A stretch of 64,000 bases of DNA from Caldilineaceae bacterium (lineage in GTDB: Bacteria > Chloroflexota > Anaerolineae > Caldilineales > Caldilineaceae). The stretch covers positions 186,001-250,000 of the forward strand of contig JAPKMW010000002.1 in the NCBI GenBank assembly GCA_026645575.1. The letters run 5' to 3'. Position numbers and translations under genes: made by a program. This document shows, piece after piece, positions 28,179 to 33,642 of the stretch (its first letter is position 1; each line of letters begins with the position of its first letter). Under the pieces are notes generated by a model. It did no database searches, had not been told where the DNA came from, and worked only from the letters and a program-made list of their open reading frames with translations.

Positions 28179-28391
28179 ATGAAAAGATTTGGTGAAAAAC
28201 TACGAACCTTGCGCGAACGGCGCGGCCTATCCCAACGGCAACTGAGTGAGTTGCTGGCGGTGCATCAAAGTTTTCTTTGGGGCTTGGAGCAAGGGCGGAA
28301 AAAACCTAGTGTTGAGATGGTGCTGAAGATTGCCGACCTGTTTGCTATCTCGCTTGATAACCTGATGAGGGATGAACTTGAACTTGCATAG
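28179..28391 (+). CDS. XRE-family HTH transcriptional regulator
   Basis: 70 residues from ATG 28179 (a GTG at 28155 would add eight). The whole protein is one Cro/CI-type domain: LRTLRERRGLSQRQLSELLAVHQSFLWGLEQGRKKPSVEMVLKIADLFAISLDNLM. It is expected to bind as a dimer, most likely to the 28-bp palindrome upstream. Its last 47 bases overlap the end of the reverse transcriptase gene on the opposite strand. The convergent overlap suggests either antisense interplay or insertion of the retroelement against this gene. Confidence 0.88.
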   Translation: MKRFGEKLRTLRERRGLSQRQLSELLAVHQSFLWGLEQGRKKPSVEMVLKIADLFAISLDNLMRDELELA

Positions 28392-29439
28392 TATCCCTTA
28401 CCGGTTTGATGGTCGCGTCGCGTAACAGCTTCTTGCGTAACCCCACTGTATTGCCAAAGCGGACATAGTTGATCCAGCCAAGAATACTGGCCTGCAACTG
28501 TTGGAGAGAAATTACACCTGTCTCATGTGCAGTGACTAATCGTTGTAATTTGCGCCGGTAGTAGATCCCCTTGCGCCGTTTGAGGCGTCGTTGTTCTGGC
28601 CAGACACGAAAACCGAGAAATGGAAAACCCTCTGTCACCGGTTGGGGCTGCGCACCGGGGTGAATGGTCAGGCGCAACGCTGTCAAGCGCTCCTCAACCG
28701 CCGCCTTCCACTGCCAAAGCGTACTTTTTTCATCAGCAAAGAGCAGTGCGTCATCGACATAACGCACATAGCCAGCGCACTGTAATTCCCGTTTGACAAA
28801 GTGATCAAAGGGGTTGAGATAGCAGTTGGCCCAGAATTGACTGGTCAAGTTGCCGATGGGCAGCCCACGCGGCCGGCTAATCGCAAAGAGATCATCACCG
28901 GCAAAATAGACCATCTCATATTGTTCCTGGAGAAGACCAACACCACTGACCAAAATGCGGTCAATCAACCACAATACGCCTGGGTCGGTGATTTTACGCG
29001 CCAGGATCGACCGCAGAATGAGATGGTCAATGCTGGGGAAGAACTGGCGCATATCGATCTGCAAGACATAACGATACCGGCGCGCCAGGGTTTGCGCCCG
29101 ATCCAAGGCGCGATGTGTCCCCTTTCCCACGCGATTGGCGTAGGAATCCGCAATAAAGGTGCGCTCAAAGATTGGCTCAATCAGGTTGCAAAGGGCATGG
29201 TGGACCACACGGTCGCGAAAAGGCGCAGCCGAAATCAGGCGGCGTTTGGGTTCATGGATGTAGAAGCTGGTATAAGGACCGGGCAGGTAGCGCTGGTCAC
29301 GCAATTCTTGTTGGAGGGTGAGCAAATTTTCTTCCAGCCGATGCTCAAAGCGCGCCACATTGGCATGGCCGCGTTTCCCTTTGGCTGCGCGCCGGTAGGC
29401 CAACAGCAGATTGTCCCAGGTGTAGAGGTTTGTGTACAT
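28345..29439 (-). CDS. DGR reverse transcriptase
   Basis: 364 residues from ATG 29439 (MYTNLYTWDN); an upstream in-frame start at 29538 would add non-conserved sequence. It copies the template-repeat RNA into adenine-mutated cDNA. RT motifs in order: RLISAAPFRDRVVHHAL, LQIDMRQFFPSID (catalytic Asp129), RGLPIGNLTSQFWANCYLN with the DGR-type GNxxSQ motif (196-201), YVRYVDDALLF (catalytic Asp pair 229-230) and FLGFRVWP. No maturase or endonuclease domain follows, which argues against a group II intron. The last residues overlap the XRE gene, so the C-terminus may be extended. It acts with Avd. Confidence 0.95.
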   Translation of the reverse strand: MYTNLYTWDNLLLAYRRAAKGKRGHANVARFEHRLEENLLTLQQELRDQRYLPGPYTSFYIHEPKRRLISAAPFRDRVVHHALCNLIEPIFERTFIADSYANRVGKGTHRALDRAQTLARRYRYVLQIDMRQFFPSIDHLILRSILARKITDPGVLWLIDRILVSGVGLLQEQYEMVYFAGDDLFAISRPRGLPIGNLTSQFWANCYLNPFDHFVKRELQCAGYVRYVDDALLFADEKSTLWQWKAAVEERLTALRLTIHPGAQPQPVTEGFPFLGFRVWPEQRRLKRRKGIYYRRKLQRLVTAHETGVISLQQLQASILGWINYVRFGNTVGLRKKLLRDATIKPVRDTMQVQVHPSSGYQAR

Positions 29440-33500: not shown

Positions 33501-33642
33501 CCTCCTTCGCCGCTTCCACAATGGGCAGGAGGGTGGCTGTTGCCAGGGCGCCATAGGTCATGCCGGGGACCATGCGCTGCACCAGGCGGGTCGATTGGCT
33601 GAATTGTTCCCGAATACGCGCTTGCCAGGTCGCTTTGTCCAT
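30523..33642 (-). CDS. DGR variable protein: NACHT-type STAND NTPase fused to FGE/C-type-lectin domain
   Basis: 1039 residues from ATG 33642 (an upstream in-frame ATG at 33780 is rejected: weak context, no conserved sequence). Order: N-terminal helical region with two hydrophobic helices (about 23-75), a variable linker, a NACHT NTPase with Walker A GAPGGGKST (268-276) and Walker B VVLVFDGLDE (366-375), a helical region with HRTFQEYLAG (609-618), then a formylglycine-generating-enzyme-type fold (about 762-1029) with PAGPFIMGS, LPTEAEWEKAARG, GNVWEWCS and RVLRGGSF...GFRVVLS. The last segment is the VR; diversified positions include 997, 1000-1001, 1008, 1010-1011 and 1013-1018. It is probably a cytoplasmic receptor whose lectin-like tip binds varying ligands and triggers NTPase assembly. 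Ligand and output are unknown. Confidence 0.92.
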   Translation of the reverse strand: MDKATWQARIREQFSQSTRLVQRMVPGMTYGALATATLLPIVEAAKEGGDPTAMIYTTLGSIGVNLVTNLIQEWKDRSDAEAAEQLPPVIMDGATGDKKDEWLAAFDKLITELDAVHLALEKVPDPAAFAAALRADKQALGSTITIRDIINSQNVAIGTGNTLTYTHIAQQVIHQAPAPPPPHTERYLQRLRNHCHALPLTAMGGDATAGDEVTLDKVYIELDTTTKVALTEAEQEARKKQGVTDREKERTVSAREAAQTTTRLVLLGAPGGGKSTFVRQLMAQLIEVRQEENEPTRFTADLFPLLTLLRELAHRLQDLQLDSLSAEARDEALMVCMWEQWQSDLARFGGADLGDQLEAALLTGKVVLVFDGLDEMAATTRPSVRLALAALLRRYRTVDRVIVTCRIRSYVGLATLPGFTAYTLADFDQEKINAFVTAWYGAQVELGRFDSHQAQSQRADLQQAARRPALRAMAANPMLLTTMAIIHQKQTRLPDERVKLYDEAVKVLLNRWQESKGLAPSPALAAFLRDDRRVRPTLERLAYEAHRQKGKEAADLPRTTLLGLLDESFAGDLTLAGEFLDYADHRAGLLVGQGGGEGSGRPQSYAFPHRTFQEYLAGCHLLAGEGNQRGVGRVYRRHAAEGDYWQLAAQLGAEELFFNRRGEALLLDLMYALCPVTPPQSEQAWRTTLWSGQMALLFDRKAIAQDEDTEEGGQAYLDRIIPRLLAILRESPLNAIERAEAGRTLAKLGDPRIEVLDPLQIEWIEIPAGPFIMGSDEASKKYNDETPQHIFTIPATYRIARYPITNAQFQRFVDEGGYTNATYWAEAAQHGYWMARGFKGRYDNRHRTGPSSYGEPFNLANHPVVGMSWYEALAFTRWLTQKLASAKQLPSGWIVRLPTEAEWEKAARGEEGQPYPWPGDQPDPNRANYDATGINSTNAVGAFPGGVSPYGVEEMAGNVWEWCSTQWLDNYADYEQKVDDTLSADKVRVLRGGSFDLNEYIVRCAARSRGSPYYGDVDVGFRVVLSPFPLGSGPLASAL
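30560..30683 (-). repeat. DGR variable repeat (VR)
   Basis: The 3' coding end of the NACHT-FGE gene, colinear with the TR. Fifteen core substitutions, all opposite a TR adenine (for example TR AAC to CTC, TAC, ATC, AGC, GGC, GAC or GTC; GAG to GGG). They change surface-exposed residues of the FGE/C-type-lectin fold. Confidence 0.96.

Follow-up and report, generated by a model that had tools for sequence, protein, structure and literature searches.

A complete diversity-generating retroelement with a NACHT-FGE receptor target in a Caldilineaceae bacterium, and a candidate target-site element beside its variable repeat

We analyzed a 64,000-nt stretch of DNA from a Caldilineaceae bacterium (GenBank assembly GCA_026645575.1; contig JAPKMW010000002.1, positions 186,001 to 250,000), referred to here as the window. 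It carries a complete diversity-generating retroelement (DGR) whose target gene encodes a receptor with a NACHT domain and a C-terminal formylglycine-generating-enzyme (FGE)/C-type-lectin domain. The template repeat (TR) of the DGR differs from the variable repeat (VR) in the target almost only at adenines, and the DGR therefore likely keeps rewriting the predicted binding face of the receptor. That error-prone copies of the TR replace the VR, so that this face keeps changing, is in our judgment probable; this reading includes sensing by the receptor and targeting through repeats next to the VR. The NACHT-FGE DGR core is already known, and the new parts are a helical N-terminal family and an element found on one side of the VR.

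All of the DGR parts lie on the minus strand, where the target comes first and is followed by avd, the TR, and the reverse transcriptase (RT) gene (Table 1); the DGR of Bordetella phage BPP-1 is arranged in the same way. A preliminary description of this DNA had proposed the same arrangement, and every part was found where it had been placed. The reading frames of the RT, Avd, and the target are all open. The RT, whose start we set at the ATG at 29442 because the domain starts there (the listed open reading frame [ORF] starts at 29538), had a Pfam RVT_1 match and, in agreement with the preliminary description, intact YVDD and SQ-type (GNLTSQ) motifs. Avd passed the cutoffs of NCBIfam DivGenRetAVD (NF033474; 87.7 bits; cutoff, 80) and Pfam bAvd (PF22296; 71.3 bits; cutoff, 40) and was matched weakly by PDB entries 4dwl and 8ub7_B. 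The DGR had been described as complete and chromosomal; completeness stood, while a chromosomal rather than an extrachromosomal location is graded as likely, because the contig is 306,565 bases long and the neighbors are housekeeping genes.

The TR and VR, described beforehand as a clear pair, aligned over 130 nt. Of their 18 mismatches, 16 are at a TR adenine (8 A>G, 6 A>T, and 2 A>C). Because the two others (29763 and 29761) lie at the 5' edge, 5' of the first adenine change, all 16 mismatches within the mutated stretch are at adenines. Given that adenine accounts for 32 of the 130 TR bases, this concentration is not due to chance. The VR encodes target residues 986 to 1027, including 18 adenine-containing codons with approximately 10^17.5 possible proteins, and the variants of these codons include zero stop codons. 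No second VR for this TR was found within the window. At two other loci, a single TR is accompanied by two VRs in two NACHT-FGE genes, with adenine mismatches of 14/14 and 10/10 (L069) and of 24/24 and 21/22 (L110).

Three relatives of the receptor from a protein collection (74 to 84% identical; a fourth, P0003, was excluded because it stops before the VR) were compared with the window. P0002 (84% identical by BLASTP) differed at 15 of the 18 adenine codons and at 1 of the 24 other VR codons, with 78 differences at 759 positions in residues 1 to 760 and 47 at 215 positions in the FGE part before the VR. The corresponding values were 15/18, 3/24, 178/754, and 56/225 for P0004 and 13/18, 3/24, 191/754, and 45/225 for P0005. 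Judged from these sequences, this is the pattern that adenine-directed diversification would leave. The preliminary description depended on excess variation in the VR, and the three relatives varied strongly and specifically at its adenine codons. Two points weigh against continuing diversification: the adenine positions used are those of the window TR rather than of the relatives' own TRs, and the case for present activity comes from one assembly and three relatives. The DGR could thus be a recent relic, with intact parts, halted diversification, and relatives whose differences record old activity. Decayed DGRs do occur among relatives (an RT fragment in L136 and, on the L112 and L135 stretches, Avd matches but no RT), and a TR/VR mismatch at 29641 falls within the conserved 3' end. 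A relic is nevertheless unlikely in our view, given the open RT, Avd, and target frames, the intact RT motifs, and three relatives that differ at most adenine codons while neighboring codons are conserved.

The best PDB match of the RT was 8ub7_A (E value, 1.3e-48), whereas group II intron RTs matched at 2.1e-22 or weaker. Entry 8ub7 holds an Avd chain as well as the RT, and we take both 8ub7 and 4dwl to be BPP-1 proteins. In a midpoint-rooted tree of 22 RTs (entry at an E value of 1e-15 over 230 aa), the window RT paired with P0121, to which it is 99% identical. Both fell in a group of 15 rows (support, 90/95) composed of RTs from the phylum or class of genome G001, RTs from G002, and metagenomic proteins, including P0221 (source label, Halieaceae). 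Five RTs of cyanobacterial plasmid DGRs formed a separate group (100/100). The RTs of L001, L045, L213, and L214 were outside the tree; L215 contributed its RT only, and L216 was unused. An RT outside the DGR clade would have counted against the preliminary description; in this tree, which has no non-DGR outgroup, the window RT grouped with those of loci bearing TR/VR pairs. Cyanobacterial DGR RTs, the best matches in the plasmid collection, were 47 to 51% identical to the window RT (tblastn), and phage RTs were at most 37.5% identical among the best 15 of 80 matches. At L050 (2.9 to 16.9 kb), one RT lies among four NACHT-FGE genes; a TR/VR pair was looked for there and none was found.

The target had been called a STAND/NACHT NTPase of 1,039 residues with an FGE/C-type-lectin C terminus, and the Pfam NACHT and FGE-sulfatase matches and Foldseek agree. 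An AlphaFold2 model of the full receptor (55-sequence alignment) had a mean predicted local distance difference test (pLDDT) score of 85.3. It matched the nucleotide-binding leucine-rich-repeat (NLR) proteins NLRC4, NOD2, and NLRP3 over approximately 600 columns (E values, approximately 1e-10 to 1e-8; TM-scores, approximately 0.2 to 0.3 by query length) as well as the FGE-fold proteins FGE, EgtB, and ToxD. The FGE domain also had a profile match to the Treponema denticola variable protein 2y3c. Of the NLR-like layout, the NACHT and the C-terminal lectin-type domain were found, and an effector or adaptor role of residues 1 to 140 is a prediction.

The N-terminal domain was modeled separately (36-sequence alignment), giving eight helices in residues ~1 to 140 (pLDDT, 90.7). 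This region had zero Pfam matches at an E value of ≤0.1, and Foldseek returned no PDB match at ≤0.001 and no clear PDB fold. With residues 1 to 181 as the query, the class of G001, represented by 396 genomes, gave matches in 34 of them. All 40 loci with the domain were examined, and their architectures were counted by hand: NACHT follows in 34 (weakly in L138), with FGE also in 29 of these 34, and four of the remaining six lie at or within ~300 nt of a contig end, L108 and L139 being the other two. The domain is a recurring helical family that is new relative to the literature examined. Nine other scanned homologues have different N termini, namely, EAD7, EAD1, NNH2, DUF4062, zinc ribbon, or ParA-like domains in six and no named domain in three. 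Because six of the nine carry other named domains, we read the helical domain as a putative exchangeable effector or adaptor module.

Between this domain and NACHT lies a linker containing a string that resembles the receptor-interacting protein homotypic interaction motif (RHIM), whose core consensus served for the comparison. A RHIM-like regular expression matched 11 of 112 linkers from homologues, against an expectation of 0.2 in shuffled sequences. When loosened, it matched 15 of 112 linkers versus 0 of 1,234 stretches taken from elsewhere in the proteins; these counts are of regular-expression rather than profile matches and include related sequences repeatedly. The window string VAIGTGNTL resembles the RHIM core. 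RHIM and bacterial BASS3 amyloid signaling motifs (PMC12261475 and PMC8086366) are the closest known counterparts; the window string differs in sitting between a helical domain and NACHT, and no partner effector was found, none having been sought. No function follows from this pattern.

On the proposed mechanism, the TR would be reverse transcribed with errors at adenines and the product would replace the VR. The FGE/C-type-lectin domain would bind a ligand, possibly phage or other nonself, and binding would free the NLR-like NACHT module for oligomerization, after which the N-terminal helical domain would recruit, or serve as, an effector. We infer both the homing and the immune function of this system. 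No effector partner was recognized in the window, which also tells against this mechanism.

Fusions of this general type had been said to occur in surveys of DGR targets, and the architecture is indeed published: the main text of Doré et al. (2024, PNAS; PMC10907252) covers NACHT/nSTAND DGR targets with C-type-lectin ends, whose N-terminal extensions are often uncharacterized, and proposes them as putative antigen sensors. A defense role is presumptive there as it is in the window. Instead of phage defense, the diversification of the receptor could serve recognition of kin or self, or the sensing of nutrients or surfaces, in a bacterium that is multicellular or aggregates. The same main text reports an enrichment of clade 5 DGRs among multicellular bacteria, the scanned neighbors of the window DGR are housekeeping genes, and PADLOC returned no match for the target at an E value of ≤0.01. 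We regard these other uses as somewhat improbable, since the receptor layout is NLR-like, homologues carry effector-associated domains, and the target has a match, albeit weak, to the NCBIfam NACHT antiphage protein EruA (37.4 bits; cutoff, 1,000).

In the parts of the literature consulted, the closest systems are the clade 5D STAND-NTPase DGRs (PMC10907252), which share with the window a cellular setting, a NACHT/nSTAND target, and a VR in a C-terminal C-type-lectin domain. Two targets are common in 5D systems, whereas the window has one target with one VR, and the descriptions of clade 5D differ from the window in its N-terminal domain, defined here as a recurring helical family, and in the YTCTG repeats on the VR side. 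Antiphage STAND/NACHT proteins (Avs and bNACHT; PMC10907252) are likewise built from an N-terminal module, NACHT, and a C-terminal sensor, while the window sensor is a predicted hypermutated FGE domain. Parts of three further papers (PMC8195603, PMC7159879, and PMC8144416) were drawn on.

The second new part directly follows the VR. CTCTG occurs five times in the 80 nt after the VR, and no 5-mer was that frequent in any of 200 shuffles; the single strand at 30420 to 30560, which includes three hairpins, folds with a z score of -6.2 relative to shuffles. Phage DGR hairpins, as given in parts of Guo et al. (2011; PMC3240598), have 7- to 10-bp stems and 4-nt GRNA loops located 4 to 34 bp from the VR. 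The window resembles the BPP-1 DGR in its related RT and Avd and in the inverted repeats past the VR. It differs in its stems (10, 10, and 8 bp) and loops (AAA, GTGC, and AAA), in the distance of the first hairpin (39 nt, after the CTCTG repeats), and in its target, a NACHT-FGE receptor rather than a phage tail protein. A GRNA-loop hairpin 4 to 34 bp after the VR is absent in the window, whereas the same scan detected GATA loops in L211 and L214. On sequence grounds, we consider the VR-side repeats a likely target-site element of the DGR, distinct from the GRNA hairpin of phages. The YTCTG repeats and GC hairpin, being on the VR side only, would mark the copy that DGRs of this lineage overwrite and would replace the 4-nt-loop hairpin of phage DGRs. 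No account of VR-side YTCTG repeats was found among the open papers listed by the searches (supplements outside the scope), and the whole words "hairpin," "IMH," and "downstream" are absent from the main text of PMC10907252.

Paired flanks were compared for this element. Over two sets, at least two YTCTG units followed 20 of 23 VRs and none of the 23 paired TRs (20 distinct TRs). In the discovery set, they occurred within 100 nt after 12/12 VRs and 0/12 paired TRs (10 distinct; the window TR flank has one YTCTG); L055 and L114 in this set have no RT on the stretch, and one L131 VR (a 50-nt match) was excluded. For the later set, made up of 11 pairs located near RTs and containing 10 different TRs (each TR strand assigned by similarity), the counts were 8/11 and 0/11. 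In a motif-free shuffle test of 80-nt flanks, from which one L210 VR, L114, and L001 were excluded, 5 of the 10 Chloroflexota VR flanks and no TR flank of the same loci had a 5-mer in excess (P ≤ 0.05).

Genes and genomes were also compared. At least two YTCTG units were present in the 130-nt 3' flanks of 42 of 64 distinct NACHT-FGE genes (15 of 16 where the stretch also carries an RT) versus 5 of 517 control ORFs (≥300 aa, from the same stretches, spurious ORFs included); on the reverse strand, the count was 1/67. Hairpins followed 27 of the 64 genes. A three-unit pattern searched for in 22 genomes gave 17 forward and 6 for the reversed-pattern control, and 16 of 39 clusters outside known loci were at FGE stop codons. 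Across the class, the pattern was present in 147 of 396 genomes, minisatellites counted in, and the reversed control matched too, frequently in some genomes (no tally). A listing-order sample of 60 clusters (≤3 per genome) was fetched, of which 57 could be judged (>250 nt upstream; L246, L250, and L282 were too short). The sample left out the genomes of the 22-genome search, clusters at contig starts (G640, G741:C116, G632:C75, and G510), and the known locus G320:C71; other loci of G719, G486, G439, and G320 were in the discovery set. Degenerate clusters were at FGE stop codons in 22 of 46 cases, all 22 on the sense strand of the gene, versus 0 of 11 clusters of identical units. DGR RTs (E value, ≤1e-60) were detected in 81 of the 396 genomes, i.e., in 58/147 with the pattern versus 23/249 without it, and in 11/19 genomes with an FGE-adjacent sampled repeat versus 1/24 without one (including G672, whose cluster was too short). 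CTCTGAC- and CTCTGGA-type minisatellites occur at several non-FGE places (G598, G508, and others; loci L190 to L206).

Several results count against targeting by the repeats. Fewer than two YTCTG units followed 3 of the 11 later-set VRs (related CTG repeats are there, by eye), hairpins with stems of at least 8 bp followed 3/11 TRs of that set (versus 7/11 VRs) and 51 of the 517 control ORFs, and the motif-free test, with only 5 of 10 VR flanks, gives weaker support. Away from FGE stop codons were 23 of the 39 clusters, mostly exact 7-bp minisatellites, and 24 of the 46 degenerate clusters lay away from FGE genes. Because the genomes are related and the assemblies incomplete, P values are too small and significance is overstated. 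The repeats also followed 27 of the 48 FGE genes whose fetched stretch carries no RT. Finally, a TR-like match with at least 75% adenine mismatches was found for 0 of 32 FGE genes away from the sampled RT in 19 genomes, versus 12 of 33 rows on RT-bearing stretches (rows that include TR-encoded pseudo-ORFs; L115 was known before). Five of the 32 (two in L131 and three in L182) share their stretch with another RT, and a few are short ORFs; several RT stretches end at contig ends, and not all RTs of the 19 genomes were included. Because of the 27/48 and 0/32 results, the repeats are not a mark of a current target; at RT-less genes they may be leftovers, serve unsampled TRs, or have another role.

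These two results, together with strand specificity of the kind that RNA elements have, also fit another explanation: the repeats and hairpins could be a 3' untranslated region, could act in termination or RNA stability, or could be a scar that earlier cDNA integration left at FGE genes. We give this a serious chance, if one short of even. It does not readily account for the presence of the repeats after VRs and not after homologous TRs (20/23 versus 0/23), the enrichment of pattern-bearing genomes for DGR RTs, or the pyrimidine-rich run of another sequence that cyanobacterial DGR targets have in this position. In four cyanobacterial plasmid DGRs (L207 to L210), seven VR flanks had 73 to 87% C/T in 60 nt versus 43 to 47% after the TR; in three of the seven, a repeat exceeded the shuffles (P ≤ 0.05). 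These DGRs (compare PMC7517822) are like that of the window in their FGE targets, a pyrimidine-rich run past the VR, and an RT approximately 47 to 51% identical to that of the window; the run is CCTTT/CTTTA-like rather than YTCTG. No repeat beyond shuffles was found in two Chlorobiota VR flanks (L212). Phage L214 and the phage-like plasmid L211 have GATA-loop hairpins and no YTCTG, and the archaeal virus L213 has neither. We suggest only tentatively that cellular DGRs have a target code, in which lineage-specific degenerate pyrimidine-rich repeats (YTCTG in Chloroflexota and CCTTT-like in cyanobacteria) and a GC hairpin after nearly every VR, and none after the TR, would direct the cDNA, and which could be read genome-wide for present or former hypermutable receptors.

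Table 1. Features of the DGR and its target in the window
Feature	Position	Strand	Basis
DGR target gene (1,039-aa NACHT-FGE receptor)	30523..33642	-	Pfam, AlphaFold2 model, Foldseek
N-terminal all-helical domain (residues 1-144), predicted effector/adaptor module	33211..33642	-	AlphaFold2 model
Gly-rich low-confidence linker (residues 145-183)	33094..33210	-	pLDDT < 50 at residues 149-179
RHIM-like string VAIGTGNTL (residues 155-163)	33154-33180	-	Regular expression
NACHT domain (residues 264-440)	32323..32853	-	Pfam PF05729, E 4.1e-9
FGE/C-type-lectin domain (residues 762-1024)	30571..31359	-	Pfam PF03781 (FGE-sulfatase), E 1.6e-53
VR	30560..30689	-	TR/VR alignment
Four CTCTG repeats directly after VR; last overlaps target stop codon	30524..30550	-	5-mer count vs shuffles
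Hairpin 1, perfect 10-bp stem, 3-nt AAA loop, 39 nt past VR	30498..30520	-	Fold
Hairpin 2, perfect 10-bp stem, 4-nt loop GTGC	30462..30485	-	Fold
Hairpin 3, perfect 8-bp stem, 3-nt AAA loop	30437..30455	-	Fold
avd, DGR accessory protein, 115 aa	29904..30251	-	NF033474, PF22296
TR	29637..29766	-	TR/VR alignment
CCAGAAATGCG in TR 3' flank, possible DGR RNA element	29605..29615	-	By eye
DGR RT, 365 aa	28345..29442	-	PDB match 8ub7_A, tree

A CxGAAATG string, seen by eye approximately 8 to 55 nt past the TR, is common to the TR 3' flanks of the window, L043, L055, L069, and L115 and is a possible DGR RNA element. A 70-aa helix-turn-helix (XRE-like) gene (28179 to 28391; plus strand) is convergent with the RT gene, shares the final 47 bases of the latter, and could be a regulator of the element. 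Large inverted repeats are present between avd and the target (30331 to 30388; by eye) and upstream of the target (33850 to 33939); all of their Rfam matches were subthreshold, and they are possible elements resembling miniature inverted-repeat transposable elements. An ORF of 344 aa (26582 to 27616; minus strand) had no Pfam match at 1e-5 and, by eye, may be akin to Rpn/PD-(D/E)XK-type proteins. In L001 (1 to 3200), a second, divergent NACHT-FGE gene, whose start we take by eye to be caspase/CHAT-like, adjoins the DGR-bearing one.

Hypermutable receptors of the NLR-like type would give bacteria a counterpart to adaptive receptor diversification, and the window supplies an example that is compact, has a single target, and includes a defined N-terminal module. 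If the repeats are indeed the target site, they would offer an easy means of steering DGR mutagenesis, and receptors of this kind could be found from a DNA pattern alone.

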